Source: Aquilaria yunnanensis
Taxonomy: Eukaryota > Streptophyta > Magnoliopsida > Malvales > Thymelaeaceae
Assembly (NCBI GenBank): GCA_039654915.1
Contig: CM077599.1
Location: 78,956,001 to 79,020,000 of the forward strand
Reading direction: 5' to 3'
DNA length: 64,000 nucleotides
The position numbers and the translations under genes are program-made. This document shows positions 9,810 through 56,310 of the stretch, in pieces (position 1 is the stretch's first letter; every line of letters begins with the position of its first letter). The notes under the pieces are model-generated. The model did not search any database and had not been told where the DNA came from. It saw only the letters and a list, made by a program, of their open reading frames with translations.

Positions 9810-11400
9810 AAGCGTTTTGTCGGACAGTTTTGCGGGGTTAGAGATTGAGTAGCAGTAGACCTATTCTTTTGTCCTCCCCAGTCGTTATGATGCAATCCGT
9901 GTCCAAATTCTTTTTGTGGGAGAGTTTCATTTGCATCGCATTGAAGTTTTGTCTGCCTACGTTAATTTAGAGGAGATTGTTTTTTTTTTCTCTGTTCATT
10001 TTGGCAGTCAACTTGCAGAAGGCTGCAACTGGGCAACACCCAATCTTGGTAAATCTGTTTCTTTTTTCGGTTTTCTTGGGCCGGCTTCTTGCAAATTGTT
10101 GTTTCTTGTTGAGGTTAACGAGGTTGCTTTGTGTCGTCTAGCCTAGAGCCAAATTGCTGCTTCGGACAAGCTGGAGCAGCAGCTTCTTGTTGTATGTTAA
10201 TTGTTAGGCGGACCTTGGGCTCTTCTCTATTCTACCATTCAATGAATCGAAATTACCCTTTTTGGCCTGACCAGCTTCCATTTCTTTTTCTTTGTTATTT
10301 TAATGAAATAAGGTATACCGCTTGTTGGAATTTGCGTTGGTATTTTCTTAGGCCACTTGACCCATTTGATTATGTTATCCTTTTTCAGGGGATGGTACTT
10401 TCCATTCATCATCTGAGGTCATTTACATTTTTTAAACTGAGTTTTGACTTGGAAGTTTCTCAAACATTTTGCAGGGTAGAAATTAAGTAGGAAATTATTC
10501 TTTTGTATGTTTTAGTCGCTTTACATGCTTTTGAGATAGAAAAGCACCTCCATTGATCAATGACAAGCAACTGACAACCAGCAAGGAAGGTGTCATTCTG
10601 GACAATTACCGAAGCTCCTTATTTTTCTGCCTCCCACCAACACCTGCAGAGGTATAGAGAAGCTCGTTGCCATTGCTCGGCCTGCTGGCAAAACACAATT
10701 GCACTTACCTGCAATCGGATGCTTACTGCTGGATCCACATTGATCTTAACAGCTGATCCCAACGGAGCCTCCCATAACAACTTGAAGGAAAGTGAAGGAG
10801 CTTCGCAGTTGTTTCTAGAAAGAGAGGGAGTTCAATTTGCACACCAATTTCGAATGGGTAAACTTCCAGTGTTGAGGAAATATGATAAGAAATCAACTTG
10901 TTCATGATTGTGGCAATATCTAAGAACAACTCAGCTAGGGTCAGGAATTTTGGGGTTTGCTAGTACCTCTCTAGTGCCGAAATGAATGAAGTCAAATGGA
11001 CCAAGGTAGCAATTGAGGCTGACGTCTTGCCTACTACAAAGTCGTACCATACAATTGTGACATTTGTCTGCAAGCCTCACCTGAAAGAGGATAGACAATT
11101 TTGTAATCTGAACTCCGAAGGTGATACCTTGAGAATAAAAGATAAAACAACTGTAGCTTAATAAACCTTTGGAGGGCCAATTTTGTAGGATCATACCTTT
11201 TTACCCCCTAATGTCAGGTACAGTTAATAATGATCCCTGGTTTGGTTACTGGTTAGACCTTTTCTTTTGGGAAAAACTTCAGAATTTCAGTTGGGCGCTT
11301 AGTTCTCTGCCGAGAAGGGCTATACCCGAGTTTAAGCCATTATTATAACTTCTTTTGCAACTTTGAACAAATCCACATTAGCAAATCAGTTCTTCCCCTA
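9810..11400. other. 3' region of OTU gene and unassigned intergenic DNA
   Basis: It begins with the probable 3'-UTR of the OTU gene. From 9980 to 10,920 there are several short open stretches with plausible splice words (for example GTAAGT on the reverse strand near 10,705), but no product I recognise. 10,590-10,907 is open on the + strand for 105 codons without family resemblance. I see no supportable gene here. Confidence 0.35.
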
Positions 11401-11760
11401 AAAATGCCCGACACAAAGCCATAACTATGAGCCTTGTGACCGCAACCTAAACCATCGTGGCTAATAGAGTACTTCACCTACAAACATTGTACAAGGATTG
11501 GAACCAAGATCAGCTCACAGATGCCCTTGACATGGCCCGAAATATTTTATATTGCAGAGCTTGCCAGGAAGCATTGTGGTTATTCTAAGAGACGATCTTT
11601 ATCTAGATCTAAACACAACGGAGTTTTCTTTCCCCAATCCAAGCCAATGAATTACACCATCCCAAAACTAGGCTCCATGACAGTTAATTCATTGGGTCAT
11701 CACTAGAAAACGTAGCAGAAGGCCTCCACAAGAATCCAGTTTCTGATTCATTAAAATAGC
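11400..11760 (-). pseudogene. heavily decayed F-box/FBA remnant
   Basis: Blocks of reverse-strand sequence match the C-terminal half of the F-box genes nearby. 11,519-11,560 corresponds to the GHLYML/FGACQG region (compare 12,930-12,965). 11,455-11,480 corresponds to the segment coding KYSI. 11,630-11,670 matches the WNGAVHWLG region. Length and spacing differ and no frame stays open. It is the oldest-looking member of the array. From 11,930 it is followed by the 3'-UTR module of copy A. Confidence 0.6.
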
Positions 11761-11929
11761 ACCGTCAACTAGGGTCGGCATTCTGGCACTTGCTTGGTTG
11801 GATCGGTGAAATCACCCTTGGTTGGATCTCATCCTTATGTCTTGCTGACCACCAGACACACTACGAATGGTAGAAAATCTCATTTTCCTTTTTTCAAAAC
11901 TCTGATAAAAACCCACTCAAGTAAAGGGG

Positions 11930-12596
11930 CAAATACGCCTTTAAGCCCATATAATCATGAATCTTAACCTATTCATTACCATATTCTTCATTCTCACCAC
12001 ACTTACCAAGGATTTTTTCAGGTAATTCAGATGTCCAACTGCAATAGAACATGTACACCAGACCTGTAACAACAGAATGAGGAAAATACACCCGCAAGCA
12101 AACACAACAGAAACGGCAAGCCATTGCAACTCAACTTGGTCTTAAAATCAAATTGAACAATTTTTCCACAAGAGTGCACCAGTCAAAAACAGCAGAAGTT
12201 ATTTGCGTCTTATACATACAACATTAGAAGCATCTTCTTCAAGAACCACAACTCTTTCTTCAGCTCTCTTGACTTATAATCCCTGTATCACAGCATCGTT
12301 GCTGCCAAGTGTAGGAGGCCAGCTTGTAGACTGGAAAACAACAAAGAAACAGTGTTAAGCATAGGCTTCAACAAAACCAATTGAACAATTTTTCAACAAG
12401 TGTATTAATTCCAGTTAACGATTCAGAGCTAGTGCCAAGTGCTGGTGAGTTAAAAAAAAAAAAAAAGGAAAGAAAAGGAAAAAGGAAAACAGGTAATTAG
12501 GGACATTGTCAGGCATCAACCTAAATAAACCAATTCAATTCTTTACAAACTTGAAAAGAAACAACATTTTCAGATACCTGCTCCAAGGCCAAAGAT
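11930..12596 (-). other. conserved 3'-UTR module of F-box copy A
   Basis: This ~650-base module lies just downstream of each F-box copy (also 18,010-18,690, 19,552-20,045, 29,655-30,360, 33,785-34,505, and split around the retroelement at 48,480 and 53,787). On the - strand it contains a likely 3'-UTR intron. The donor GAGCAG|GTATCT is about 15 bases after the stop, and an acceptor TTCCAG (TTGCAG in other copies) sits near 12,330. The junction is under 50 bases from the stop, so nonsense-mediated decay would not be expected. Conservation across copies exceeds that of neighbouring DNA. Confidence 0.6.
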
Positions 12597-13688
12597 TCAA
12601 ACGGAGGCCAAAGACTGCATGTAAATATAAGCCTTGCGGTGAAAATAGTGGCTTGACAAAGTTGTTTGAACAGGAAAGGCATTTGGGTTCTTGGCATTAT
12701 ACGTGTAAACTTTCAGATGACAAGTTACCACCACAAACAGTTGGTCATCTTCCCCCAAAAATATGCATAACACTCGGTTATTATCACGATCTCCAAGAGT
12801 TCGAATGAAATGGCCATGCCTAACAGAATACTTGATTGACAGACATGAGAAGTCATGCTCCATCTCATAGACAATCCACCTAACAGGATTGCAATCCGAA
12901 TCAAATTTCAACATATACAGATGCCCTTGACATGCTCCAAAATATTTGACATCATTGTCCCTCAAAGGAATGGTTGCAGTTCTTCTCAAACAATCCTGGT
13001 TGAGATCAAAAGAATAGACAGCTTCCTTGCTACGTCCAAGCCAGTGAACTGCACCATTCCAAAATATGCCACTAAGATCACCCGGGAGTTTTTCAAAATC
13101 ATTTGAAGTAATTATAGCAGAATGCCTCCACAACCCAGACTTGGATTCATAAACATAAATCTGAGGATCCCCATCGCAAATGCAAACAAGTCTATATTTT
13201 TCCGGGGTGGAAGGATTGAAAGCCAGAATAGTGGAGCCTATTTTGTTTTCCTTCACCTCCAAAAGATCTGGTATTCTTGCCACGTGTTTTGTGGCTGGAT
13301 TGCAAACATAACGCGATTCATCTCCAAATGAACAAAGCAACAATCCATTGCAGGAGTCCAAAATTTCCACTCCTTTGGGGAATTTGCAAGGAGCCCTAGA
13401 ATTATTCCTAACACGGTAATCCTTATCAAATCTAACATATTTCAGATATTCACCCCAGAGGGCAGGCAAAAAGAGACCCGCGGGGCTAGTGTTGGGGTTA
13501 CGACGGGTATGTTCGAGACGAAAGTTGGGAATAGAGATGAGATCGTACCATTGCCGGGAAACCCTCTTGAAATTGAGGAGAGATTTTACCGGAAGACGAA
13601 TCAGAATTTCCCACAGCAAATCAGCGGAAGACGCTACTTCTTCAGCTGCTGCCTTGCTACGAGGACCTCGCTTGCGATTTTTCGCCAT
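12597..13688 (-). CDS. F-box protein with FBA domain, copy A (intact)
   Basis: 363 aa from the ATG at 13,688 (MAKNRKRG). An upstream in-frame ATG would add 11 residues, but the paralogues all start at the MAxN position. Residues ~20-62 form the F-box (LLWEILIRLPVKSLLNFKRV then SRQWYDLI). Residues ~85-340 form an F-box-associated interaction domain with ILDSCNGLLLCSF, VCNPATKHVARIP, LAFNPSTPEKYRLVC and WNGAVHWLG. Family knowledge: such proteins join SKP1-cullin1 ligases and recruit substrates for ubiquitination; substrate unknown. No disabling change is seen. It is the first intact member of a - strand array. Its 5' flank (CTCGAAGGGGAATC) matches that of copy F, so A and F may share an older upstream region. 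Confidence 0.88.
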   Translation of the reverse strand: MAKNRKRGPRSKAAAEEVASSADLLWEILIRLPVKSLLNFKRVSRQWYDLISIPNFRLEHTRRNPNTSPAGLFLPALWGEYLKYVRFDKDYRVRNNSRAPCKFPKGVEILDSCNGLLLCSFGDESRYVCNPATKHVARIPDLLEVKENKIGSTILAFNPSTPEKYRLVCICDGDPQIYVYESKSGLWRHSAIITSNDFEKLPGDLSGIFWNGAVHWLGRSKEAVYSFDLNQDCLRRTATIPLRDNDVKYFGACQGHLYMLKFDSDCNPVRWIVYEMEHDFSCLSIKYSVRHGHFIRTLGDRDNNRVLCIFLGEDDQLFVVVTCHLKVYTYNAKNPNAFPVQTTLSSHYFHRKAYIYMQSLASV

Positions 13689-15032: not shown

Positions 15033-15212
15033 TATTTAAAAACTATAATATTTAAAGTTTCATTTTCATACAAAATATTCATATCTTTATAATAAATTTT
15101 AAAAGAAATAAAATCATAAATTAATTATTATAAATAGTAAAAGGGTTAGTTTTTGTAAAATTGAGAGAGTAACTTAGTCTATTTGCTCTTTATCAAAATT
15201 GCTAAAATATTA

Positions 15213-16048: not shown

Positions 16049-16074
16049 TAACTAGTAGTAGTATTATTTTTTTA

Positions 16075-18692: not shown

Positions 18693-19548
18693 TCAAACAG
18701 CCAAAGACTCTGCATAAACATGAACGTCGTGACAAAAAAAGTAGATTGCTGGAGTTGTTTGACCATGAATTAAATTTGGGGTCTTGGCATTATAGGTGTA
18801 AACTTTCAGACCACGTGATACCACAACGAACGGTTCATCATCCTCCCCCAAAAATATGCATACCACGTGGAGATTATCATAAGCTCCAAGAGTGCAAACT
18901 AAATCATCACGGCTAATAGAGTACTTCACTGAGACAAGAAAAATCATTTTCCATCTCATAGACAATCCACATAACAGGATTGCATTGCAAATCAGCTTTC
19001 AACAGATACAGATGCCCATGACATGCCCCAAAATATTTTGTGTGCTGGCCCCTCAAATGAGTGGTTACAGTTGTTCTCCAAGAATCCTGGTTGAGATCAA
19101 AACTATAGATAGCTCTAAAGTAAAATCCAGGCCAGTGAACTGTGCCTTTCCAAAATACACCCCTGGGATAGTGGGATATTTGTAGATCATTTAAAGTAAT
19201 AGCAAAATGCCTCCACAACCAAGATTCGGATTCATAAACATAAATCAAACGAGACTCATCAAGGGAAACAAGTCTATATCTTTCCAGGGTGGAAGGATCA
19301 AAAGCCAGAACGATGGAGCTTTTAGTTTTGACGATTTCCTACCCCTCGAAAAGATTTGTAACTCTTGCCATGTGTTTTGCGGCTGGATTGCAAACATAAA
19401 GCTTGCATTCTGGATCATCAGAGAGATTTCTATCTCCAAATGAACACAGCAACAACAATCCATTGCAGGAGTCCAAAATTTCCAATCTTTTGGGGAATTC
19501 ACAAGGAGCCTTAGAATAACGCCTCACACAATAATCCTGATCAAATCA
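18693..19548 (-). pseudogene. F-box/FBA copy B, 5'-truncated and frameshifted
   Basis: The reverse strand encodes the FBA part only. From 19,527 downward it reads ILDSCNGLLLL, then VCNPAAKHMARV, then YVYESESWLWRH, then FGACHGHLYLLK, ending near 18,693 with HVYAESLAV. At least two frame changes occur, one near 18,925 where two bases are missing relative to copy E. The F-box and the start are absent: homology stops at about 19,548, where the sequence switches directly into the 3'-UTR module of copy C. The gene cannot make a working SCF adaptor. It is likely the product of unequal crossing-over or deletion between units B and C. Confidence 0.8.
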
Positions 19549-20045: not shown

Positions 20046-21155
20046 TCAAACGGAGACCAAAGACTCTGTGTAAATATGAGCCTCGCGATGAAAACAGTAG
20101 CTTGCCAAAGTTGTCTGAACGGGAAGGGAATTTGGATTGCTGGCATTATACGTGTAAACTTTCAGACCACATGTTATCACCACGAACAGTTCATCATCTT
20201 CCCCCAAAAATATGCATAACACGCTTTGCTTGTCAAGATCTCCAAGATTGCGAATGAAATCATCACAACTAATAGAATACTTCATTGCCAGACATGAGAA
20301 GTCATGTTCCATCTCATAGACAATCCACCTAACAGGATTGCAATCCGAATCAAATTTCAACATATACAGATGCCCTTGAAATGCTCCAAAATATTTTACA
20401 TCCTTGTGCCTCAAAGGAATGGTTGCAGTTCTTCTCAAACAATCCTTGTTGAGATCAAAAGAATAGACAGCTTTATTGCTATGCCCAAGCCAGTGAACTG
20501 CACCATTCCAAAATGTGCCCCTGTAGGATAGTTTTGCAACAATATTTGAAGTCGTAGCAGAATGCCTTCACAACCAAGTTCTGGATTCAAAAACATCAAT
20601 CCCATGGTACCAAAATCTTCCCACGACGCAACGGTTGCAAACGATTCTATATATTTCCGGTGTAGAAGGATCAAAAGCTAGAACGAAGGAGCTACACCAG
20701 TCAAATATATTTGGTACACTGGCAACGTGTTTTGTGGCTGGATTGCAAACATAAAGCTTGCGTTGTCGATTATAAAAGTAAGTTCGATCTTCAAATGAAC
20801 ACAGAAACAATCCATTGCAGGAGTCCAGAATTTCCAATCCTTCCGGGAATTCGTAAGGAGCCTTAGAACAACTCCCCACGCGATAACCCTTATCAAATCT
20901 AAAATATTTCGCATCTCTACCGGCCATGTCAGTTATGAAGAGACATGTCGGGCTAGGGCAAGGGTTACGCCGAGTATGTTCGAGACGAAACTGCGGATGA
21001 GAGATGAGATCATACCATTGCCGGGAAACCCTCTTGAAATTGAGGATAGATCTTACCGGGAGACGAATCAGAATCTCCCACAGCAAATCATCAGAAGATA
21101 CTACTTCTTCAGCCGCTGCTTTGCTACGACGACCTCGATTGGAATTATTCGCCAT
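20046..21155 (-). pseudogene. F-box/FBA copy C, single premature stop
   Basis: The reading frame runs from the ATG at 21,155 (MANNSNRGRR) to 20,046 with one interruption. A TGA at 20,568-20,570 stands where the paralogues have the Trp codon TGG in the LWRHSA motif. The same frame resumes at once (RHSATTSNIVAKL) and stays open for 173 codons to the usual end. The F-box (LLWEILIRLPVRSILNFKRV) and all FBA landmarks are present. As it stands it would make a ~195-residue protein with the F-box and a third of the FBA domain. It could be a very recent loss, a polymorphism or a sequencing error. Just upstream sits a Mutator-like insertion at 21,266, so the promoter may also be displaced. Confidence 0.85.
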
Positions 21156-21265: not shown

Positions 21266-21994
21266 GTCAAAAGTATCAAAATTGCCCCTGATATTTAACT
21301 CAGAACTCGAATTTGCCACTATAGTTTTTTTACCCAATCTTTCACTAATATTTTAAAATTGACTCAAATATACCACTGCCATTAAAAAATAATGGAAAAT
21401 GTAAATAGTGAGAAGTTTTAAAATTTTATGATGATAATGTAACTTTTAAAAAACTATAAGAGTTATAGATAATTAGACCTACCTCCAATGTCATGGATTT
21501 CTCCGGTCTCACCTTCGGCAACATCGCATCTGGTCGAACCTCACCTCTGACAACATCCCATTAAACCAAGGAAGGAGCACAAACGGAGGGCTACAGGCAA
21601 ACCAGCGAACCAGCCATTCCATTGGATTGATTTCGAGATCAAAACTGACAAAATCTCGAGCACTTCTCCTAATTTAGTCTCCAATGTAACAATGAAATTT
21701 TTTAAGAGTATTGGCTTCGTATTTTGTGCTAGAGATTCTGGAAGGTTGGTTTCCACCTCTGGCAAAGCAGCAAAAAAAAAAAGGGAGGAGAAAAAGCATC
21801 AAAGACGATAGAGCGAAGCTTCGAAGACAGTAGAGGGAGTGTTTTTATGCGGAGGAAAAACAATTCTTTCTCTCAAATCTCACTGGTGTCGATGGGAGGA
21901 GAAAAAGCTAAAAAAGCTAGAATTTTTTTTATCATCGGGCATCGTAGATAGTGACCGGAGAAGTTTCATAAAGCGGCGACAGTAGACGACCTTT

Positions 21995-22036
<42 letters not shown>

Positions 22037-22286
22037 GGAGAGAGAAAGACTAATTACATAAAATATTTAAAGTTTGTTAAAACTTGCATTATCACTCTAA
22101 ACTTTCAAAACTTGTTATTTTTAACGTTTTCTATTAACTTTTTAACGGCAGTAACATATTTCACCCCAAATCTAAAACTTTAGTGGCATATTTGGGCCAA
22201 TTTTAAAACATTAATAGGAGATTGGGATAAAAAAAACTGTTGTGGTAGATGACCTAAACATTAGTAGTAAACTTGATACTTTTGCC
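21266..22286. mobile_element. non-autonomous Mutator-like element 1
   Basis: The flanking direct repeats are CACATATTA (21,257-21,265 and 22,288-22,296; ten bases if the preceding G is counted). The ends GTCAAAAGTATCAA and, in reverse, GGCAAAAGTATCAA begin inverted repeats about 150 bases long. The paralogous position upstream of copy E (near 35,750) has the single uninterrupted site. TSD length and long TIRs indicate a Mutator-like element. The interior has no transposase. It includes a (GA)n run and a short reverse-strand open stretch (21,541-21,765) I do not recognise. It lies ~110 bases upstream of the copy C start. Confidence 0.85.
21996..22049. repeat. (GA)n microsatellite
   Basis: About 36 bases of uninterrupted GA followed by a GGAGAGGGAGAGAG variant, inside Mutator-like element 1 near its right TIR. 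Likely length-variable. Confidence 0.95.
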
Positions 22287-22296
22287 GCACATATTA

Positions 22297-25571: not shown

Positions 25572-25858
25572 TTCCCTTTCGAATTTAGTTGAAACATTTT
25601 TCTGAGTGCGCAAATTAAAGTGTATGTAATTTATGTTAATTTTTTATATAATAAAAATTTAAATAATAATTAAAAATTTTATTATTATTATTTATTTTGT
25701 GCAGTGAGAGATTAAGTGAATATAAAAAAAAAAGTCTTTATTGAGTTTTGTGTAAAAGAGTAATTTAATTGTTTAAATTTTTTCAAAAGAGGAAATGTTT
25801 CAATTTTTTGGGACATTCTAAAAAGAAATATGTTTCAAGTAAATTGGGACAGAGGAAA
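25572..25858. mobile_element. Stowaway-like MITE
   Basis: Inserted at a TA (25,570-25,571 and 25,859-25,860). The left end TTCCCTTTCGAATTTAGTTG pairs with a right end reading TTTCCTCTGTCCCAATTTAC in reverse; both continue with TTGAAACAT. The paralogous sequence at about 38,355 shows the empty site AAAGATATATTAAATG. No coding capacity. Confidence 0.75.
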
Positions 25859-25895
25859 TATTAAATGAAAGTTAAGATTGGTATATTACTTAATT

Positions 25896-35645: not shown

Positions 35646-35756
35646 TTCCAAATCCCAACCTCGCAAGTTCTGAAATGCACCGTGTGCAAGTACACCGCGT
35701 TTCCTTTCCTGTTTGGTGCCGTTAGTGGAGGTGAGAAAAATCAGCACATATTAATA

Positions 35757-42887: not shown

Positions 42888-44268
42888 ATGGACAATGAGG
42901 GAAAAGATACAATCTTTGCAATATTTTGGTGGATGCACACTCGCCGAATAGGAATGTCATATTTGTTAATGATTGTTGTTTATTGGTATTTCTCTAAGAA
43001 ACGAAAACATAGGTTATCAATAGGTAATAATAGAATTAACTTTGAAAGAAGAGAGAGAATTAGAGCTCAAGTTATGCATGACATATTAGGACCGACAGGT
43101 CGTGATATAGTTAGAATGAGCCCTACGGCTTTTATACAATTATGTGAATTACTCAAAATGGAGGGTGGTCTTCGACCAACACGGCGTGCTAGTGTTGAAG
43201 AACAAGTTGCTAAGTCCTTATACATTTTGACCCATCATGCCAAAAATCGTGCGGTTAACTTTTGGTTCAAGCGTTCTGGAGAAACAACAAGCCGTCACTT
43301 TCATCGGGTTTTAAAAGCTATTATAGAGTTAGAGGAAAGATTCATCAAGCAGCCTAATGGATCTGTAACCCCACCAGAGATTGAGCAGAACAGTAAATTC
43401 TTCCCATATTTTAAGGTAAAATATGTTAAGATTGCAGTAGTCATAACATGTTTATAACTAACGGTTGGCTGACATATAACCTTCTTGACTATAACATAAT
43501 AGGATTGCATAGGGGCGATTGATGGCACACATATTCGAGCTAAAGTGCCTACTCGAGTTGCTCCACGATACCGTGGAAGAAAAGACTACCCAACAATGAA
43601 CGTACTATGTGCTTGTTCGTTTGATTTGAAGTTCACTTACGTTCTCTCTGGGTGGGAGGGTACTGCATCTGACTCACGAATTCTGAAAGATGCACTATCT
43701 AGAGAAGATAAACTTGAGGTTCCGGAAGGTAACATATTTACAAATATTAAACTGTTAATTATTTAATTATTTATTATTTCCAATATTTCAATTTATAATA
43801 GGGTTTTATTTTATTTTAGGAAAATATTATATTGCGGATGCTGGGTTCGGGCTGAAAGCTGAATTTATCACACCTTACAGAGGTGTCCGATATCATTTGA
43901 ATGAGTTCTCGAGTAATCCGCCGAGAACCATACGAGAGTTATTTAACCATCGTCATGCATCTTTACGAAATGCAGTTGAACGAGCTTTTGGGCTATTAAA
44001 AAAAAGATTTCCCATCATATCAAGTGCCAATGAACCAACATATGAGGTTAAAACACATAAGTTAATTGTTTTAGCATGTTGTATCTTGCATAATTATTTG
44101 TTGGGTATTGATCCAGATGAGAGCCTTTTAGCAGAGGTTGACGAACGAATTAGGAATCGACGTCACCGTCGTTGTCCTACAACAGATGAAGATGACGAAC
44201 ATAGGGGAGAGTTGGTCAGAGATTCTTTAGCTGGTGCTATGTGGATTGATTATAGTCGTCGTACCTAA
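42888..44268 (+). CDS. PIF/Harbinger DDE transposase
   Basis: Exons 42,888-43,415, 43,503-43,728 and 43,820-44,268 (GT/AG introns) join to 1203 nt, 400 aa, without stops. A further intron acceptor (TTATTTAG) abuts the ATG, so the leader is probably spliced. An N-terminal hydrophobic patch (SYLLMIVVYWYF) is followed by a helical region with HHAKNRAV.FWFKRSGET. The catalytic DDE core has Asp183 in GAIDGTH, Asp258 in YIADAGF and Glu305 in NAVERAFG, in normal family order. By family it is a nuclear enzyme cutting the element at TWA sites together with the Myb-like partner encoded ~190 bases downstream. All three acidic residues are present and it looks intact. Confidence 0.88.
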
Positions 44269-44454
44269 ACTGTTTAGCATTAGATTTGATTTGTGAGATT
44301 GATTTCTATGACTACGTTGTCGAATAAAGTCCAGAATTGCTTGCCATCATATGAAAATTTATTTATTGTTTAAAATTGCTTGAAGTTCTTTAATATTATC
44401 ACATAGATTAATTTAATAAATTTTGTAATTAATTGGTTTGATCATGTCACTAGA

Positions 44455-45471
44455 ATGGAGGGAGGAAGTTCAAGTGGTGCTGAAAATTATGGCAGAAGAA
44501 ATACAGTGGTGTGGACACCTTTGATGGATGAAGCTTTATTGGATGCATTAATGCTGCAACAGGAGAAAGGCTTCAAGCAGAATGGGAGTTTTATCTCACA
44601 AGCGTATGACAATATTGTCATAGAACTGAAAGAAAAAATTGGAGACGATATAACTAAGGACAAGGTCAAAAATAGGTGGAAGACCTTGAAAAGTAATTTT
44701 GCGAAGTGCTATGATTTTTGGAGGAATGGTATGAGTGGATTTGCTTGGAATCCTACCACTAAGCTTTGGAGTGCTGAACCTGAAGTTTGGGAGAGTCTAA
44801 TCAAGGTTAGCATCTTCTAGTAACAAATACCAAAAAATTATTTTTAATTTATTATTTTTTTATATGAGATATGTTTATATTTTTTTGTTTGTTTTTTGTT
44901 TTCTCAGGATAAGCCTGCAGCTCGTGAATGGATGACAAAACCTATTCCCCATTATGATAAGATGCTGATATTGTATGGAAATGATAGAGCTACGGGTGAT
45001 GAAAGTGGAACTGCGAAAGAAGTAAGGCGCCGTCAAGCTTTTGAGCAGATGGAGACTATTGATGAGATTGATCATCTTGTCTCAGAAAATGAAGTGAATT
45101 TGGAAAGTTGTGATCCGTCTGATGATGCAGAACAACATTTCTCTGAGGCACGAGCTCGTAAAACTAAGAAGGCCAAGGGAGCAAAGAATGATAACGATGA
45201 TGGGATATTAATTAAAGAAGCAATTGATAATGTTGCTCAAGTGATGGAACGAGGAAATCTAGTACTTGAGAAGGTGATGCAACGACTTCCAATTCCTGAA
45301 GAACAACTGTGGACTCTTTTGGAAGAAATATCGCTTGAGCCGCACGTGCTAACTGACGCATATGTTCACTTAATTGCACATCCCGAGAAAATACGAGCTT
45401 TGTTAGGATGTCCTCAACATAGGCGGAAGGACATTGTCATGCGATTAGTCTTCGGACATTTTGGTCCATGA
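44455..45471 (+). CDS. PIF/Harbinger Myb/SANT-like accessory protein
   Basis: Exons 44,455-44,805 and 44,908-45,471 (donor AAG|GTTAGC, acceptor CTCAG|GAT) give 915 nt, 304 aa. Residues ~18-115 form a Myb/SANT-like DNA-binding domain: VVWTPLMDEALLDALMLQQE then KNRWKTLKSNFAKCYDF and GFAWNPTTKLW. The middle is acidic then lysine-rich (ARKTKKAKGAKN), a possible nuclear localisation signal. The C-terminal part (VLEKVMQRLP, ALLGCPQHRRKDIVMRLVFG) is typical of the second protein of plant PIF elements. By family it binds element DNA and brings the transposase into the nucleus. Same strand as the transposase; no disabling changes. Confidence 0.85.
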
Positions 45472-46221
45472 TATTCCTAAATGGTTTATTTCGTAGTTAG
45501 ATGGAATAAGTTAGAACACTTTTATTATTACATGGATTCAACATATGAAATTATGTTGGTTATGTTTTTCAATAAGTTCGTACTTATATTGTACTTAGGA
45601 GAATAATTATGAAAAGTTCCCACACTTTACAAACTTTGACTTATTTTTTTAGTTCAACAATTTTGCTTCACAAAAATGTTTTACTTTTCTTTTTATTGGA
45701 TAAATATGTTCTTCAAATCAACCAATTTTATTGGATCTATATATGGAAATTTTGTTAGTACAAGCAATTTATCACATTATTAAGAAAGAAGAATAAAATG
45801 AATTTACAAGCTAAGTAAAGGGTAAAATTGTAATAATATTTAAATTCTTTCACTCCCCCTCCTTTAATGAATGTATCCAAACAAGGAGGGGTAAACTTCC
45901 CTTTCTTCCCCTTACTAAGTCTATCCAAACAAGGGTAAGGTCATGACACCTTCCCCTTCCCTCCCCTTCCCTCCCCTTCCCTTAATGATAATATCCAAAC
46001 AAAGCCTAAGGGACTGAGTTGGACTACGCCAAATCTAAGAGCATCCATGAGTGAGTTGGCAAAGTCGGAGATAGTAAAGTGGATTTTGGACTACTCAATT
46101 TAATCAATAAAAGATTACATTTATTGTGATTTCACTAAACTATAAGTTTTATCTACTCAATAATTATTTTGGAATAGAGGAAAAAATATGGTTAATCCTA
46201 AAACTTTGATCATTTTTCTAT

Positions 46222-47350
46222 TAAAAAAATTCATATATGATCTCATCACTATAACAGTTGTCCTAATATGACAATTTATTTCAATTGGTGCTATCTAAAA
46301 GCCTCGTAACTCATAAATTATATCTTATATAAGTTCATTCCATTAGTTTTTTCATTATTTTGGATGAAAATTACTTATGAGGTACTTTTTACTCCCATAT
46401 TGGATCTTAGACTGCCATGTGAATGACTATATCGAAGGAAAAGAAGCTTTAAGTTCAAATTTGAGACAAACAAATAATTAAATCATTCTTCACCAAATCT
46501 TCTCCTTCTCCTCCGATTCGGCCCAGCTATGCTCTCCTCCCTCTCCTCCTCCCTCTGGTCTGATGCCCTTTGTTGCGTCTGGAAAACGCCAAGAACAACG
46601 GAAGCAGACAGGAGATTGGTAGAAACAGCATGATTCATAGGGTCCGAAACTGAGCAATTCGGAGGAAGATGAATCTCAATGATGGCGACAAGCCCGCTCG
46701 TATTGTTGATGGAATCGAGTCCAATACCTTGATCCACCGTGCCGAGTCTTCCATGTCCATGCCACATTTTTTTGTCCCGATGTTTAATGGCAACCGATTG
46801 TTGTTGTTGTTACTGCTGGTGCCCTTGGAGGCAGCGCAGCTGCAGCCGCCGCCGCCGCCGCCAAGAGAGGAAGACAGTGTCGATTAGCAAGTTGGAGGAT
46901 TCGGGCTTCTTGTTGCGCCGAGGACAATGGTGGGCTGGGGCGCCGCTACCCAGAGAGGAAAACAATGGTGCAGAAGGCATCTAGCCGAAGAGCAGAGGAG
47001 AGGGAGGAGTGCAGCAGACAGGCCAGCTGGGGCCAATCGGAGGAGAGGGAGAAGATTTTGGTAAAAAAATGAAAAATTACATTTTGAGTCTTTAATTATT
47101 TGTCTATGTTAAATTTTAACTTAAAGTTTCTTTTCCTTCACTATAGTCATCCACGTGGCAATTTGGAACTCACCATGAGAGTAGAAAGTGTTAAATAAGC
47201 AATTTTCATTCAAAATAAAGGAAAAACTAACAAAATGGACTTATATAGGACATGATATATGAGTTAGCAGATTTTAAAATGACACCAACAGAGATAAGGG
47301 ACCACACTAGGATGACTGTTATAGTAAAGAAACCATATATGGATTTTATC
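46222..47350. mobile_element. element Z, copy 3 (most complete)
   Basis: Arms of roughly 250-300 bases pair along their length. The outermost shared word is CATATATG. Further in come CACTATAACAGTTGTCC against TTACTATAACAGTCATCC, then TATATAAGTTCATT, then CCAAATCTTCTCC. The centre (46,560-47,030) is GC-rich with a CCGCCGCCGCCGCC run. No transposase. A TSD around TTCTATT is suspected by comparison with the empty site near 16,945 but is not certain. Probable non-autonomous Mutator-like element with captured DNA. Confidence 0.6.
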
Positions 47351-48479
47351 CATATTCTATTTGAGTCCTAAAACTTTACGAGTTTCTATTTAAGTCCTAA
47401 AACTTTCAACACGTGTAAATATTTAATCCTAAACTATTAGCCACATGTTTTGGGGTTAACTTTAGGACTAACTATTTATATATTTTGTAAGTTTTAGGAC
47501 TAAAAAAAAATCACAAAATTTTGGTACTTAAATAGAAATTCACAAAGTTTTAGAATTAAATAGAAAAGTCATGAAAAATTTAGGACTAAAGTGATCTTTC
47601 TCCTAGCTTCTGTTCTGTTGGTGCTTCAAAACCTTATGAGAAAATATCAATTTGTCTTTCACTATTCTTTCTTCCAAATGCTTTTCCAAATTAATCCTTT
47701 ATTTTTGTACAGTGAGAAGAACAAATATATTCTTTTTCAAAATTTTCAAAGAATTTACAATATGTTTTTTTCAATTTATATATTGAATGATGAAAAATTA
47801 TACTTTATCATGGATTTATTTGTTGTCATTGTATAATTAACGTAGAGCTGGCTTCGCCTGGAGTATAGCTAGCATATAAAGTTGGTTTTTATTCAATAGA
47901 TCCCATTAATATTATTTTTCAATTTAGGGAAACTATTATCTTATTTATGCTTTTAGAAAATTTTCAAACTTATTAATAAGCATATCATTTTTATACAAGT
48001 TTAGTGGAGATTACTTTTTAATGACTAAAAATATATATTTTGAGATGTCTTTGTTCTTCGAAACTTTTAATCGTCCTTTTACATCTTCCAAAAGTATTTT
48101 TAATTTTTGTTTTTGTAAAAAAAAAACATATATTTTTATTTAAAAAATGTAAAAAAACTATTCAAACAAAAATTAAAAAATTATGAGAACTTCTAAAAAA
48201 ATATTTTTCAAGTTAAAGGGGGAAAGATTACTTTCAATCATAAATCCGTTGCAACTTGCCTATTTAAGTCATAAAGCTTTGTGAATTTCTATTTGAATTT
48301 TAATACTTGTGAAACATGTAAATAGTTGGTCATAGAGATATAGTTTACCCTAGAACAGGTGACTAATAGTTTAGAACTAGCTGTTTACACGTTTTGAAAG
48401 TTTTAAGAATCTAATAGTAATTCATAAAATTTTAGGACTTAAATAAAATATTTACCAAAGTCCACTTAAGTGAAGGGGC
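47351..48479. repeat. inter-unit flank of the F-box array, copy 4
   Basis: Collinear with 28,546-29,654 and 32,723-33,784; AT-rich. No gene seen; an 81-codon open stretch at 47,591 is not conserved as a frame in the other copies. Confidence 0.65.
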
Positions 48480-48691: not shown

Positions 48692-49055
48692 TGATAAACT
48701 CAGGAGGATGGCACGTGCGCGAATAAGCCATCCAAGATACCAAGATTACATGTGAGCATGTTAGCAGTGGAAGATTTGCTCCTGATTTGCAACTACTTAA
48801 GAATCGGTCAACAAAACTTAGTATTTGAGTTTGTTTGAGTCATCAGCCAATCCACTAACTGTTGTTAGCTAGTTACTTAGAATTCAAGTCATCTTATAAT
48901 TCCTTTTGTTTAGGAAGTTTGTTGAGTCTATTGGTGTGTTTAAGCTTCACAAGTTTTAATGCAATAATCAGATTTTTCATCCAATTTGCTCCTCGATTTT
49001 ATTCTCACCAAAAGAAGAATACTTCCTGCAACAAAGTTCTGATTGGGACATATCA
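48692..49055 (+). repeat. 5' LTR of the chromovirus
   Basis: Begins TGATAAACTCAGG and ends GGGACATATCA. Paired with 53,423-53,786, most differences being C/T or G/A. Confidence 0.92.
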
Positions 49056-49070
49056 ATTGGTATCAGAGCT

Positions 49071-52000
49071 ATGGCCACGAACAAGGAAAGAATTGAGAGT
49101 CTTGAGGCAGGGCTCGGAGAGCTACAGAATGGGATTAGCCAAATGGAGTTAGGACTGGTCGACAAGCTACGACACATGGAGGAAGCCATCAGCAAACTTT
49201 CTGAGGTTATGCTGGCCAACAAGGAAGGCTCCGGGAGCAAATCCCACAACCACGGTAGAAATGCACGGAACCATCGTGAAGAGTCTAGAAACGAAACGAC
49301 TGGTAGAAACCGACTATTCACATCCAAATTGGCCAAACTTGAGTTTCCCAGGTACATTGGAGACGATCCCACTGAATGGTTCATTCGCGTTAACTAGTTT
49401 TTTGAATACCAGGAGACTCATGAATCCGAGAAGGTGCCTTTAGCATCCTTCCACTTAGAAGGCGAAGCAAATTAATGGTGGCAGTGGATGCGGAAGACCT
49501 ATGAGGAAAAAGGCCAGACAGTTACGTGGGACGACTTCCAGACGGAGCTATGGTCTCGTTTTGGACCAATAGCTTGCGAGGACTTCGATGAAGCCTTATC
49601 CAAATTCGGCAAACTGGCACACTACGTGACTACTAGAAGGAATTTGAGAGGCTTGGAAACAAAGTGCATGGATGGACCCAGAAAGCCTTAGTAGGAACTT
49701 TCATGGGTGGTTTGAAGCCAGAAATTGCTGATGGCATCCGCATGTTCAAGCCTAAGAGCCTAAAGGAAGCCATTGATTTGGCTCAAATGAAGAACGAGTA
49801 GCTCATATGCCAGAGAAAAGCCTACCGCCCGCCCATGGCCGAAGCTTCCCCAACCAAACAAAAGCCTGCCACGCCATTCAAATGACTCACATAGGAGGAA
49901 ATGCAGAAATGACAAGCATAAGGTTTATGCTTTAATTGTGATGAAAAATTCACAGTCGGACACAAATGTAGAGGATCCCAACTTCTGATCTTAGAAGGGG
50001 TCGACGTCAAGGGCTAGGATGAGATCGAGGAGGCAGAGGAACAATAAGATGGACCAGAAATTACACTCTATGCATTGACTGGATGGACAACTGCCCAAAC
50101 CATGCGAGTGGTAGCCAAGATTGGAACTCAAGAACTGGTGGCACTCATCGATAACGGCTCCACACACAATTTCATCAATGAAAAGGTGGCTGAATCACTC
50201 TAATTACCCTTGATGCCAACTGAACCTTTCAAAGTTAAGGTGGCGAATGACGTCCCCTTAAGTTGCCATGGACGGCATGACGGCATTGCTGTATACCTTC
50301 AAGGTATTTCTTTTTCCTTAACATTATGCTCTTTACCACTGACTGGACTGGATATGGTTTTGGGTATACAGTGGCTCCAACAGCTGGGTACTGTAATGTG
50401 TGATTGGAAAAGGATGACAATGGAATTTACGTGGGGCGATCGATACCACCAATTGCATGACATTCCCAGCAATCCTATCCAACCGGCCACTTATGAAGAA
50501 GCAACAAACGAAGTATGTCAAAGGGGCACGATTTATGTTCTCTGTGTACAAGAGGCTCCAAGCGAAGAACACCAGAGCACCGTCCCAGACGTGCAGCTCC
50601 TGTTAAAAGAATTTCAGGATGTTCATGCCGAACCTAAGCAGTTGCCTCCTAATTGAGACGTGGAACATCAAATACACTTGAAGGAAGGCGTAGAGCCAAT
50701 CAATGCCCGACCTTATAGGTATGCTCATTTCCAAAAGGCAGAAATAGAAAGACAGTTTCAAGACATGTTGCACAAAGGGCTGATCCGTTCCAGCACAAGT
50801 CCCTTTTCATCTTCAGTACTGCTCGTTAAAAAGAAGGATGGGACATGGCGTTTTTGTACTGATTATAGAGCCCTCAACGTTGTCACCATTAAAGATCGAT
50901 TTCCTATCCCAACTGTGGAAGACATGCTGGATGAACTACATGGGGCCTCCTATTTCACCAAACTCGACCTCCGATCTGGCTATCATCAGGTACGAGTTCA
51001 TTCAGCCAATATTCATAAGACGGCTTTTCGAACACACAATGGCCATTATGAATACTTGGTTATGCCCTTTTGGTTGTGCAATGCCCCTTCAACATTTCAA
51101 GCCCTCATGAATTCTATATTTCGGCCTTATTTATAAAAGTTTGTGCTCGTATTCTTTGATGACATTTTAATCTATAGTCCCAGTTGGTCTATGCATCTTA
51201 CACACGTACGGAAGGTCCTGGAAATACTAAGGCAACACTAATTTTTTATCAAACTCAGCAAATGTGCCTTTGGCTGACAAGAGCTGAAGTACTTAGGGCA
51301 TATTGTGACGCCACGCGGAGTGAAGGTTGATCAGGAAAAGATTACGGCAATGGTGAGATGGCCTCGACCTTCTAATATATCTGACCTCCATGGTTTTTTA
51401 GGTTTGACAGGTTATTACAGAAAATTTGTGAAGAACTATGGCATCATAACTCGATCACTCAGCAACCTCTTAAAGAAAGGGCAATTTCATTGGACAGATG
51501 AAGCAAAGGAAGCTTTTAAAGCTTTGAAACAAGCCATGATGTCAACGCCTACACTAGTTATGCCAAATTTCGATGAGTCATTTATTATAGAAACTGATGC
51601 ATCCGGAGATGGCATTAGGGCCTTGTTGACACAACAATGGAGGCCGATCGCTTTTATGAGCCGAGCTTTAGGAGCCTCCAAGAGAGTCTGGTCGACTTAT
51701 GCCAAGGAAATGTTCGCCATTGTTCAAGCCATATAGACATGGCGTCCGTATTTGTTGGGGAGGAAGTTTTACATCCAAACTGACCACCGGAGCTTGAAAC
51801 ACCTAACGGAGCAGCAAATCAATACACCAGAGCAGCAGAAATGGGTTTCAAAATTACTCGGGTATGACTATGAAATCACTTACAAACCCGGTAAAGAAAA
51901 TGCAGCTGCAGATGCCTTATCGAGAGTTACGGGCAGCCCTAGCCTTAATACTCTATTTGTTCCTTAAACGTCATTATGGGATGAAATCAAGAAAGAAGCT

Positions 52001-53420
52001 GTTACACATCCGTATATGAAGAAAGTTGGTGAGCTAGTGACAGCCAATCCGGGTACTCCTTATCAATGGCAGAATGGATTAGTATGTTATAAAAATTGAA
52101 TTGTTGTCCCTTCTAACTCACATCTTGGCACTCAGTTGTTATAGGAATTTCATGATTCTCGGTATGAAGGACACTCTGATGTGTTAAGAACATACAAAAG
52201 GGTGGCACAACAATTTTATTGGCCATCGATGCGAAAAGACAATCCAACAGTATGTTGCTTCTTGCATTATTTGCTAGAAAAATAAGGTGGAGACATTAAC
52301 ACCAGCCAGGCTACTCCAACCATTATCAATTCCATGTCAAGTCTAGGAGGAAATCACCATGGATTTCATTGAGGGCTTACCTCCGTCTAGTGGCAAGAGC
52401 ACAATCTTTGTGGTGGTTGACCGCCTTAGTAAATCAGCCAATTTCCTTGCCTTATCCCATTTATAAACGGCCAAAATGGTGGTAGAAAAATTTATAGAAG
52501 GAATTGTGAAGCTTCATGGCATGCCCAAGTCGATTGTAAGTGACCGAGATCCTATCTTCATTAGTCATTTTTGGCAAGAATTTTTCAAAATGTCAGGAAC
52601 TAAGCTACACATAAGCTCGGCATATCACCCCCAATCCAATGGCCAATTGGAGGTGGTCAACAGGTGCCTAGAGTAGTATCTACGTTGTTTTGTGTCACAA
52701 CAACCTCGCAAATGGTGCTCTTACCTTCCCTGGGCTAAATTCTGGTACAACACTACATATTATGGCTTTATTAGGATGACACCCTTCCAAGCACTCTATG
52801 GATGACTACCACCCACTATACCTAAGTATCAAGTTGGTGTAACTTTAGTCGAAGAAGTCGACCAAGCTTTAATCTCACAAGATCACATTTTGCGGCAACT
52901 CAAATCTAATCTACACGCGGCGGCCAACCGTATGAAACAAATGGCTAATACCAAACGATGGGATTGATGTTGAATTTCAAGTGGGTGACTTCGTCTTTAT
53001 CAAATTACACCCTTACCGCCAACACACGGTGTATAGGAGGGCATATCAAAAACTTACTTGCCGCTTTTATAGACCCTATCAAATTGAAGAAAAGATTGGT
53101 AAGGTGGCGTATAAACTTAGGCTGCCGAAAGGGGCTCGCATACATCCTGTCTTTCATGTGTCAATGTTAAAAAAAAAAGTAGGAAAAACCAGTCCTACTA
53201 GTACAAAATTGCCGCCAATTATTGATGGAGATATAATGGTGGAACCCGAGGCGATACTGGGCACCAGATGGGTTAAGAAAGGCTCAAGGTTTGTTGACGA
53301 AAGTCTGGTGCAAAGGAAGAACTTGCCCAAAGAAAATGCAACGTGGGAAGATACACAAGAGCTTTGCAGGCGATTTGTCAGTTTGAACCTTGAGGACAAG
53401 GTTCGGCCAAAAAGGGAGGC
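49071..53420 (+). pseudogene. chromovirus gag-pol, many in-frame stops
   Basis: The reading frame is interrupted by stops (for example ending 49,397, 49,691, 50,656, 51,136, 51,736, 51,967 and 52,676). Gag spans ~49,071-49,990 and ends with a zinc knuckle near 49,927. The protease has the LIDNGSTHNF motif (~50,145). Reverse transcriptase (~50,660-51,200) shows [10 protein letters not shown] and an FFDD catalytic box. RNase H begins near 51,590 (ETDASG). The integrase core near 52,355-52,680 has the spaced Asp, Asp, Glu residues. The chromodomain (~53,240-53,390) ends with W-E-D-T. It cannot produce an active polyprotein; described here as found. Confidence 0.9.
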
Positions 53421-53422
53421 AA

Positions 53423-53786
53423 TGATAGACTCAGGAGGACGGCACGTGAGTGAAGAAGCCATCCAAGATACCAGGATTACGTGTGAGCATGTTAGTAGTG
53501 GAAGATTTGCTCCTGATTTGCAGCTACTTAAGAATCGGTCAACAAAACTTAGTATTTGAGTTTGTTTGAGTCATCGGCCAGTCCATTAGCCGTTGTTAGC
53601 TAGTTACTTAGAATTCAAGTCATCTTATAATTCCTTTTGTTTAGGAAGTTTGTTGAGTCTATTGGTGTATTTAAACTTCACAAGTTTTAATGCAATAATC
53701 AGATTTTTCATCCAATTTGCTCCTCAATTTTATTCTCACCAAAAGAAGAATACTTCCTACAACAAAGTTCTGATTGGGACCTATCA
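53423..53786 (+). repeat. 3' LTR of the chromovirus
   Basis: Begins TGATAGACTCAGG and ends GGGACCTATCA, followed by the AAATC TSD. Same length as the 5' LTR. Confidence 0.92.
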
Positions 53787-54292: not shown

Positions 54293-55801
54293 TCAAACAG
54301 GGGCAAAAGACTCTGCGTAAAAATGAGCATTGCGAGTTTTGCGACGAAAACAGTAGCTTACCAAAGTTGTTTGCACAGGAAGTAAATTTGGAGCCTTGGC
54401 ATTATAAGTGTAAACTAGGGGTGAACACATGAACAAACAGCTCGAGTTCGACTCGATTTAAAGTTCGTTCATAACTCGTTCAAATAATTATCAAGCCAAG
54501 CCAAAAAAAAATTTAAAGCTCGATATATAATTCAAACAAAGCTCAAATTGCTTACTACTCGACTCGACCCAATCTAATTTTAGATTTTTTCCTTAATTTA
54601 AATGAACAGATCAAGTTCGACTCGAGCTCGTTCAGATAAAAGTTTGTTCAAAGCTTGTTCATGTTGTTTTCAATCCAAACATAAAAAAAATATCAAGCTA
54701 GATAATTAATTCAAGCCGAATATGATCAGCCTACCACTCGGCTCGACTTGGCTAGTTTTCAGCCCTAGTGTAAACTTTCCGACCATATGGTACTACAAAG
54801 AACAATTCAACTTCTTCCCCTACAAAAATGAATAAGATATAATCATAATCACGACCTCTAACAATGCGAAACAAATGATCGTGCCTAATAGAGTACTTCA
54901 TTGAGAGGCCTGATAAGTCATGTTCCATCTCATAGACAATCCACTTAACAGGATTGCAATCCGAATCAACTTTCAACATATACATATGCCCTTGACATGC
55001 TCCAAAATATTCTATAGTATCCTTGCCCTTTAAAGGAATGGTTGCAGCTTTTCTCAAACAATCCTGGCTAAGATCAAAAGAATAGAGAGCTTCATTGTTA
55101 TGTCCAAGCCAGTTAACTGCACCATTCCAATATATGGCATGTCTACTGAGACTATAAGGTATACATCTATCATTTGGAATCATAGCAGAATGCCTCCACA
55201 ACCCAATTTGGGATTCATAAATGTCAATTCGATGTAATCGATGGTACATAAACCTTCCCTCGATGTAATTGTTGCAAACAATTTTATATTTTTCTGGTGT
55301 GGAAGGATCAAAAGCCAGAATAAAGGAGCTACACAAGTAAAATATGTTTGGTACCCTAGCCATTTGTTTTGTGGCTGGATTGCAAACATAAAGCTTGCAT
55401 TCTTGATCATCCAAGAAATCTCCATCTTTAAATGAATAGAGCAAGAATCCATTACAGGAGTCCAAAATTTTATATCCTTTAGGGAATTGGCAAGGAGCCT
55501 TAGAACAACTCCTCATGTGATAATCCTTATCAAATCTAAAATGTTTCAAATCTACAATATCATCGCGCATGAAGGGAGTTAAAAAGGGACCAGCAAGGTT
55601 AGGGTCGGGGTCATGATGAGTATGTTCGAGATGAAACTGGGATTGAGAGATAAGATCATACCATTGATGGGAAACCTTCCTAAAATTAAGGGGAGATTTT
55701 ACCTGAAGACGAATCATAATCTCCCACAGCAAATCAGTGGACGACGCTACTTCTTCAGCCGCTGCATTGCTATGGCGACCTTGCTTGCGATTATTTGCCA
55801 T
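54293..55801 (-). pseudogene. F-box/FBA copy F, C-terminus broken by a hAT element
   Basis: Start ATG at 55,801 (MANNRKQGRHSN). The frame is open for 349 codons to 54,752. The last residues (TRAEN) and the stop come from the hAT insertion at 54,416-54,767. Beyond it (54,293-54,415) the original C-terminal coding sequence remains and is in phase with the first part, since the insertion plus TSD is 360 bases. The F-box has unusual changes: LLWEIMIRLQVKSPLNF, with Pro of the usual RLPVKS replaced by Gln and Leu by Pro, which may weaken SKP1 binding. The FBA domain is otherwise complete. A protein lacking ~38 C-terminal residues could still be made, so loss of function is likely but not proven. 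Confidence 0.82.
54416..54767. mobile_element. non-autonomous hAT element 3 within F-box copy F
   Basis: 352 bases flanked by GTGTAAAC (54,408-54,415 and 54,768-54,775). The ends TAGGGGTGAACAC and, in reverse, TAGGGCTGAAAAC are typical of hAT. GCTCGA and GACTCGA words recur subterminally, as in hAT element 2. Copy E (34,615-34,630) gives the uninterrupted site. Confidence 0.9.
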
Positions 55802-55849
55802 TTGGAAGTCCTAAGCAGCTCGAAGGGGAATCCCCAGAGATCACAGGCT

Positions 55850-56310
55850 GATTGAAAGTTGAAAATGCGTTTTAGCCTTTTATTAAAATATTGATGCAAA
55901 TTAAAAAAAAAACAAAAATCAAGAAAATTATGGAATTACTTGGTGCTTAAGAAAATCCATATTTAACCTAGATAAAATCTAGAGAAAAGATAATAATTAA
56001 ACAAAGAGACATTTTAAGAGAAATCTAGAAAAAGGTGAAAAGTCAAAGATGGGGCTAGAATGTAAAAGCTTCTATAAAGTTGTGGCTAAGAGTGGTTTAG
56101 CCCAAAAAAAGGCAATTTTTTAGAAATCCCAATAGAGGGTCTGGCTGATAACAATGCCATGTACAAAGCTTAAACCTTGTTTTCTTAAATTCTTAATTAC
56201 TGGGCTACCTTGGAACCCATTTGGTATCAGAACCATGTTAGGTTGTTCTTTCCATCAAAGTTGAGTTATTAAGAATTTCTTGCTGATCCATTGACCTAGA
56301 CACTAAAAAA
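55850..56310 (+). other. leader-like region with tRNA-Met primer site
   Basis: Homology to the F-box A upstream DNA ends near 55,850. The region is A-rich and without genes. At 56,222-56,234 lies TGGTATCAGAACC, one base off the complement of initiator-Met tRNA used by caulimovirids and many retrotransposons. It lies ~90 bases before the movement-protein-like frame, as expected for a pararetroviral genome start. Confidence 0.55.

Follow-up and report, generated by a model that had tools for sequence, protein, structure and literature searches.

Lineage-specific F-box genes of plants are described as products of tandem duplication that evolve under relaxed selection and become pseudogenes (PMC3030570), and plant resistance-gene clusters as places where unequal crossing over generates chimeric genes (PMC3924838); nematode clusters are among the subjects of PMC5041008. 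The use of paralogous empty sites (RESites) as proof of transposition is likewise a known approach (PMC2213677). We describe a tandem array of F-box genes from Aquilaria yunnanensis, located in a stretch of 64,000 nucleotides (bases 78956001-79020000 of contig C7, GenBank CM077599.1; hereafter the window). Two of its genes are hybrids of neighbouring copies, and the cluster was probably enlarged by unequal crossing over within the coding region and is now decaying by transposon insertion and point lesions. The array thus records recombination as much as insertion; since both processes are well known, it is a clear but ordinary example of them.

Like the genes treated in PMC3030570, the array is tandem, has few close relatives, shows dN/dS values of 0.60-1.06 over whole coding alignments and contains broken genes (four of six), so the locus is another case of an already known type, the decaying tandem F-box cluster. 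It differs in that internal recombination, shared nested elements and the insertions of each unit can be mapped base by base; the word "unequal" is absent from the main text of that paper. As in RESites, the proof is a paralogous site without the element, where the target stands only once, but here one gene array covers several superfamilies together and yields some order. Intragenic exchange between tandem paralogues with exchanged flanking markers is shared with the resistance-gene clusters of PMC3924838, whereas the genes here are of the F-box/propeller type and the exchange is read from one genome, with no observed recombinants. In a limited literature search we noticed no publication on F-box genes that have become hybrids by recombination within a plant array, which implies no wider absence.

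Results

A tblastn search with the U1 and U5 proteins located six F-box copies (U1-U6) and one remnant (U0) in the window, all on the minus strand (Table 1), as an earlier note on this DNA had claimed. The self-comparison proposed in that note gave 45 direct matches with a length of 200 bp or above between positions 11000 and 56000, against 0 in each of five order-1 Markov resamplings. A 3' untranslated region (3'UTR) module is common to all six copies, again as claimed, and is shorter in U3. Full open frames are kept in U1 and U5 only. The 5' end of U2 is fused directly to the U3 3'UTR near 19548, and the coding region of U4 contains a 34-bp tandem duplication (30846-30913) that is probably a very young lesion, since its two copies are exact. 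In the 842-Mb genome (345 contigs), U5 has at least 13 matches, 8 of them inside the window; the others comprise a divergent paralogue 82 kb past the right end of the window (C7:79102281-79103286, 67%), a 61-bp fragment at C7:79028489 and three fragments on C1 (65-68%). Since these matches are mostly local, close kin are seen only in the neighbourhood of the array.

U4 and U5 are hybrids: the upstream flank and the 5' coding part are U3-like, and the 3' coding part, the 3'UTR and the downstream flank are U6-like. The 5' flank with the start of the coding sequence gives the tree ((U1,U6),U3,(U4,U5)), and trees that join U1 and U3 are 40 log-likelihood units (lnL) worse (approximately unbiased test, AU, p 3e-5). 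The 3' coding part gives ((U1,U3),U6,(U4,U5)), with the 5' topology 97 lnL worse (AU 0.0004; 0.0001 with the first partition), and the 3'UTR gives the same tree, with the opposite grouping 45 lnL worse (AU 2e-5). When the paralogue 82 kb away serves as outgroup, the groups are (U3,(U4,U5)) in the 5' coding part (97.6/97) and ((U4,U5),U6) in the 3' part (99.1/100). In two other alignments, of coding sequence plus 3'UTR from the start codon, the informative sites of the 5' part favour U1+U6 (14/21) and none favours U1+U3, while the remaining 3' part has 70 (66) sites for U1+U3 versus 4 for U1+U6. The pairwise homoplasy index (PHI) was reached in 0 of 1000 shuffles. Max-chi analysis without the 5' flank places the change from U3-like to U6-like sequence at alignment columns 567-632 in both U4 and U5 (0/5000 shuffles each), which in U5 corresponds to window positions 35161-35220, approximately codon 142-161, within the propeller. 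The alternative that U3 itself arose from U1 and U6 by such an exchange was rejected, as its max-chi break is non-significant (418/5000).

Given these contradictory trees for the 5' and 3' parts, no unit can be treated as a single lineage. The earlier note had pictured clean duplication of whole units, followed by the spread of elements and by insertions into single units, without exchange among the units. Insertions confined to one unit, with empty sites in others, are indeed real (see below), but this history is contradicted by the conflicting trees, max-chi and PHI, by 5' flanks that are non-homologous among units and by elements that were shared before duplication; we regard it as very unlikely. 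Because the units are mosaic, the order of events can be read block by block but not along whole units, and the relative order that the note had considered readable is too simple and can be recovered only in this restricted form, given the conflict of the trees and the homogenised tract described below.

The divergence values are those expected of a single exchange. The distance between U3 and U6 is equal on both sides of the break (K 0.248 and 0.231; dS 0.281 and 0.284). The hybrids differ from U3 in the 5' part by K 0.091-0.101 (dS 0.061-0.081) and from U6 in the 3' part by K 0.086 (dS 0.107-0.112), and the upstream blocks of U3 and U5 differ by K 0.081-0.119 when the homogenised tract is left out. 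Divergence, and so age, is about equal on both sides, as one crossover predicts. The flanking markers are exchanged as well: the upstream blocks of U4 and U5 match U3, and their 3'UTR and downstream X/Y blocks (elements described below) match U6. Between them, the U4 and U5 genes differ by K 0.055-0.061 (dS 0.070-0.083). As the array is known from assembled sequence alone, mis-joined haplotypes might mimic such hybrids. However, U4 and U5 have the same breakpoint region, their gene sites differ by 5-6% from each other and by 8-9% from the nearer parent, which is more than expected of allelic mis-joining, and the contig spans 87 Mb, so that an assembly artefact has only the slightest chance of being the explanation.

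The 5' flanks fall into two types. Those of U3, U4 and U5 (beta-type) are not homologous to those of U1 and U6 (42-48% identity), while U1 and U6 are 83% identical over 47 bases. The collinearity outside the coding regions expected in the earlier note is therefore found over much of the units but breaks down in these flanks. The flank of the 82-kb paralogue is convincingly of neither type (the U6 score was reached by 7/200 shuffles, the others by 112-184/200). The beta-type flank and about 1.7 kb beyond it recur on contig C6 near 9.10 and 9.25 Mb (73-87%), in both places without the array gene and broken up by other sequence. In one of these relatives (L023), homology stops approximately 18 bp short of where U5 has its start codon, and about 475 bp further, in the same orientation, begins an F-box frame of another kind (26% over 124 residues to U1); in the other (L022), homology ends earlier and no F-box match was seen.

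These relatives also bear on a tract of unusual similarity. The upstream blocks of U3 and U5 contain two adjoining parts of unequal divergence, with 69 of 730 sites different in the first and 17 of 694 in the second (Fisher p 1.2e-08), while across the same two parts U5 differs from L023 at 123/730 and 140/694 sites and from L022 at 133/730 and 134/694 (ratio test for the low-divergence tract, p 4.7e-08). Since similarity to the C6 relatives does not rise in the second part, its low divergence between U3 and U5 is best read as recent homogenisation, and slow evolution or constraint was rejected. U4 shares this homogenised tract (K 0.008-0.012 over 263-264 bp). Such later homogenisation would mislead dating by flank divergence. 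Conversion thus appears to be active in the array, and U4 and U5 might accordingly be plain duplicates of a U3-like or U6-like unit in which one half was overwritten by the other parent without crossover; that the U4 and U5 genes are less diverged than their X/Y blocks would also fit. This explanation must reckon with the exchange of outside markers, downstream (3'UTR, X/Y) with U6 and upstream (5' flank, block of about 1.9 kb, Z) with U3, which needs a conversion tract of several kilobases on one side. We consider it improbable, and infer crossover rather than conversion.

Several observations weigh against a simple crossover history. The 5' coding sequence alone (columns 126-760, a partition that extends beyond the break) does not reject U1+U3 trees (6.5-6.8 lnL worse, AU 0.070/0.197), and a shorter partition (columns 126-560), with the cut picked once the break was known, rejects them only at AU 0.025 (10.5 lnL); the strong 5' signal comes largely from the flanks that are non-homologous between groups. 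Max-chi also indicates possible breaks near the far end of the 3'UTR for U1 versus U3/U6 (23/5000) and U6 versus U3/U1 (77/5000), and a break for U1 versus U2/U3 (0/5000). The X/Y blocks (K 0.11-0.155) do not group U4 with U5, which is unexpected for clean block duplication, and between U4 and U5 they are more diverged (K 0.125-0.140) than the genes; this excess may be attributed either to faster change of the elements or to later gene-to-gene conversion. The remnant pair of element W is likewise more diverged than the genes (K 0.20 over 87 bp). Finally, the over-similar upstream tract itself shows conversion at work in the array. U3 is closer to U1 in the 3' half (K 0.151) than in the 5' half (0.245), and U3 versus U2/U1 has a max-chi break at 34/5000; together with the U1 versus U2/U3 break, this makes an older exchange among U1, U2 and U3 likely.

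Table 1 Positions of the array copies, associated blocks and inserted elements in the window. Empty cells, nothing reported.
Feature	Position	Strand	Remarks
U0, F-box gene remnant	11370..11667	-	Residues ~209-333; has a stop
U1, full open frame	12597..13688	-	363 aa; F-box and KIB1-4 propeller (Pfam)
U2, 5'-truncated	18699..19545	-	Residues ~87-361; stop and frameshift
U3, full length	20046..21155	-	Single internal stop after codon 195
U4, hybrid, broken	30364..31468	-	Frameshift near 31123, tandem duplication, deletion near 30438
U5, hybrid, full open frame	34506..35645	-	379 aa; 5' U3-like, 3' U6-like
U6	54296..55801	-	Frame ends at 349 aa, cut by hAT-like MITE
3'UTR module, U5 copy	33759..34480	-	Relatives 3' of all six copies
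Beta-type 5' flank and upstream block, U5	35663..37534	-	Copies: U3 ~21173-25451 (with inserts), U4 mostly deleted
Y, terminal-inverted-repeat element, U6 copy	47355..48451		Dispersed on contigs C1-C8
X, terminal-inverted-repeat element in left repeat of Y, U6 copy	46223..47352		Target duplication TTTTCTATT/TATTCTATT
Z, dispersed repeat upstream of U3	25885..27140		Approximate ends
W, MITE-like	38391..38845		Duplication TATTACTTA; U4 upstream copy 32014-32100 (cut)
MULE1, Mutator-like, upstream of U3	21266..22286		Duplication GCACATATTA; empty in U4, U5 (2/2)
MULE2, Mutator-like, upstream of U3	22715..24256		~245-bp inverted repeats (78.8%); duplication AATTTCATA; empty in U5 (1/1)
Stowaway-like MITE, upstream of U3	25572..25858		TA duplication; U5 empty
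Stowaway-like MITE within U4 X	27316..27552		TA duplication; U6 empty (1/1); 86% near-full relative in L033
hAT1, non-autonomous hAT-like, upstream of U5	37535..38229		Duplication ATCTGAAT/ATCTAAAT; ends TAGAGATGTCAA; U3, U4 empty (2/2)
hAT2, hAT-like, upstream of U5	39067..39924		Duplication CGATTCAG; U3 empty (1/1)
PIF/Harbinger-like, upstream of U5	40989..46006		5018 bp; TAA duplication both sides; U3 empty (1/1)
LTR retrotransposon, Ty3-like, in U6 3'UTR	48692..53786	+	Duplication AAATC; LTRs 94.7-94.8% identical
hAT-like MITE in U6 coding region	54416..54767		352 bp; duplication GTGTAAAC; empty in U1, U2, U3, U5
U1 Stowaway-like element	14143-15033		Empty counterpart in window: none shown

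Four kinds of element are shared between units (the letters X, Y, Z and W are our own and may differ from those of the earlier note, which had no coordinates). Besides U6, Y occurs in U2 (16915-17987), U4 (28541-29650) and U5 (32725-33750), with approximate ends. Since the left flank is common to U2, U4 and U6 and about 25 terminal bases are missing from the right end in U2, U4, U5 and U6, these are copies of one insertion. The dispersal of Y over the contigs was seen among 40 scored of 545 candidates. Further copies of X lie at 27275-28540 (U4, containing a Stowaway-like element) and 32107-32724 (U5, cut), and among 40 scored of 443 candidates X occurs on C6 and C5 and in partial copies on C4 (71-79%). 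X sits inside the left repeat of Y in U4 and U6, and the three Y copies from elsewhere that were aligned there (L028, L031 and L034) run uninterrupted through the position of X; with the Stowaway-like element inside the U4 X, the nesting order Y, X, Stowaway is direct. U1 has no X/Y block.

Z, which is dispersed in the genome (40 scored of 213 candidates), has a counterpart in U5 at 39928-46054 that is interrupted by the PIF-like element. Since the divergence of Z between U3 and U5 (K 0.105) is like that of the flanks (0.08-0.12), Z was duplicated along with the unit. The W junction is identical in U4 and U5, and the U3 site is without W; the W family has further members at other places of the window, and L011, L023 and L024 contain it too. 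The earlier note had the units duplicate before Z and W spread. If the same letters are meant, this order does not hold, as Y, X, Z and W all preceded some duplications and were copied with the units.

Empty sites were sought for eleven elements (X in two units) by joining the 60 bases on each side, with one copy of the target duplication kept, and aligning them to the other units. For 9 of the 11, an empty counterpart aligned across the junction in at least one other unit, so the paralogous units do provide empty sites for one another's insertions, as the note had proposed. Its wording that each insertion has one goes too far: none was shown in the window for Y, the U1 Stowaway-like element and the long terminal repeat (LTR) element on the right (from 57425), and none is clean for X and W. 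The W alignment (38/41) ends 3 bases past the junction. The alignment of the U4 flanks of X (56/75) reaches 16 bases past, and that of the U6 flanks did not cross; U2 was rejected as a clean empty site for X, since a deletion of about 26 bp lies over the target there. For the Stowaway-like element of U3, U5 alone is empty (67/73); its alignment has a single gap close to the junction, and the right end used was 19 bases off; the U4 alignment runs 1 base past the junction and U2-left falls short of it. The LTR element in U6 is empty in all five units tried (U1-U5: 105/115, 104/113, 107/120, 110/115 and 115/120), and the hAT-like miniature inverted-repeat transposable element (MITE) in the U6 coding region in all four tried, U4 being deleted at that position. 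Nine elements are each confined to one unit, as far as counterparts survive.

Superfamily names are based on duplication length and end motifs, to which protein domains are added in the case of the LTR and PIF-like elements; the Mutator-like label (MULE1, MULE2, W and X) is structural only. Target duplications are exact at 10, 9, 9, 8, 8 and 5 bases. The first three belong to MULE1, MULE2 and W, with X matching at 8/9 bases in both U6 and U4, and the 8-bp duplications are of hAT type (exact in hAT2 and the U6 MITE, 7/8 in hAT1). For a random pair of positions, an exact duplication has a chance of 0.0016 at 5 bases, 0.00007 at 8 and 0.000015 at 9; duplications of 2 and 3 bases (0.075 and 0.021) are weak evidence alone. 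Short inverted ends of the YAGGG type are a hAT end motif, with which the ends of hAT2 agree only in part. The PIF-like element contains open frames at 42888-43457, in which no Pfam family was matched at E 0.001, and at 44455-44820 (Myb_DNA-bind_3, 61.7 bits). The U6 LTR element encodes RVT_1 and RNase H domains, and a chromodomain-like match at 53164-53559 stays below cut-off (20.4 bits); adjoining its 5' LTR is what we take to be a tRNA-Met-type primer site. In 21 loci outside the array (115,351 bases), hAT1, hAT2, MULE1, MULE2, the U6 MITE, the PIF-like element and the LTR element gave a single match, 38 bp of MULE1, so that these elements rest on their duplications, ends and empty sites.

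The earlier note had labelled the genes F-box/FBA. The F-box part stands: PF00646 exceeds the cut-off in U1, the U3 fragment and U5 and reaches 19.5 bits against a cut-off of 20.5 in U6, while the U4 fragment entered the Pfam search without its F-box region. FBA_1 and FBA_3 (PF07734, PF08268), carried by many database relatives of the array proteins, matched none of the five F-box frames of the window at E 0.001 (Pfam). The KIB1-4 beta-propeller family was found instead, above cut-off in U1 and U6 and below it in U5, together with a kelch-like model. The structure model of U5 (mean predicted local distance difference test score, pLDDT, 74.2) has helices at residues 21-63, the F-box position, and then strands up to residue 372. 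It matched kelch propellers in the PDB (best E 1.1e-08, template modelling score, TM, 0.49/0.61), and by sequence residues 252-276 are like a blade of the designed PDB proteins Cake and Scone. Protein relatives are few (37 matches, 25-38% identical, the best-scoring 31%). The array genes are thus predicted to encode adaptors of SCF-type (Skp1-cullin-F-box) ubiquitin ligases, a biochemical role suggested by these domains.

Other features of the region are as follows. Within the U5 upstream block, about 185 bp (37016-37200) recur in at least 15 other places of the genome (70-81%), and 36504-36772 consists of three tandem copies of an 89-bp unit. A 135-aa frame at 37149-37556 was rejected as a gene; it has no Pfam match at E 0.01 and its start lies inside hAT1. 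In the divergent paralogue (L010 4198-5315, minus strand), the frame appears to shift once, between the positions of U5 residues 167 and 168. On the right, L009 8489-8549 matches the 3' coding end of U5 (80%) and L009 6687-6797 matches window positions 56111-56221 (87%), which suggests a further decayed unit. Also beyond the array is a second LTR retroelement (57425-58995 and 62929 to L009:484) that leaves the window; its LTRs are 91-92% identical (K 0.086 over 1071 bases). To the left, a plus-strand frame of 205 aa (7367-7984) resembles plant OTU-domain proteins with up to 76% identity (nearest named proteins from Malvales, 68-74%, among them Gossypium, Rubroshorea and Theobroma at 72-74%; Acer and Pistacia, 71-72%) and may be exon 1 of a genuine gene. 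Five tandem copies of a 320-bp unit (83% matches) at 2743-4422 are flanked by inverted arms (2087-2737 and 4140-4735); related repeats extend into the left neighbour L011 and have sequence in common with W. A scan against Rfam gave zero matches.

Discussion

The order of events that we propose runs as follows. Two older genes, the ancestors of U3 and U6 (split at K ~0.24), would have mispaired when Y, then X in Y, and Z were already in place, to be copied along with the units. A crossover at approximately codon 142-161 (K ~0.09) would have produced a gene of two sources, in which the upstream region, the F-box and the initial strands of the propeller come from U3, and the end of the propeller, the 3'UTR and the X/Y block downstream of it from U6. 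W may have arrived after this crossover and before the hybrid was copied to give U4 and U5 (K ~0.055). Since U3 and U4 are both empty, hAT1 would have entered U5 after that copying, unless the neighbouring conversion tract changed the site. hAT2 and the PIF-like element are datable only as younger than the U3-U5 split, because the U4 counterpart is deleted. The LTR pair in U6 differs by K 0.055 (16 transitions and 3 transversions in 360 sites), and its insertion would fall at or after the time of U4/U5 copying.

Where the beta-type upstream region came from is a more tentative matter. This region, from about 18 bp to about 1.9 kb before the start codon, may have been joined to an F-box coding sequence from elsewhere, and the captured promoter then spread by the intragenic crossover. 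We put this forward as a possibility rather than a probability, since the block recurs twice on C6 without the gene, once near another F-box gene, and U1 and U6 keep another flank. If it is true, the locus would act as a natural device for shuffling promoters and domains, with its steps marked by transposon insertions, in which a borrowed promoter and F-box were paired with new propeller ends.

For tandem arrays in general, since the parts of a unit differ in history, insertion order and synonymous dating must go block by block. The array combines hybrid genes, with the promoter and F-box of one parent and the substrate domain of the other, a conversion tract, and insertions that are nested or confined to single units, and in about 45 kb it provides a compact and readable case of how a plant F-box cluster grows and decays.

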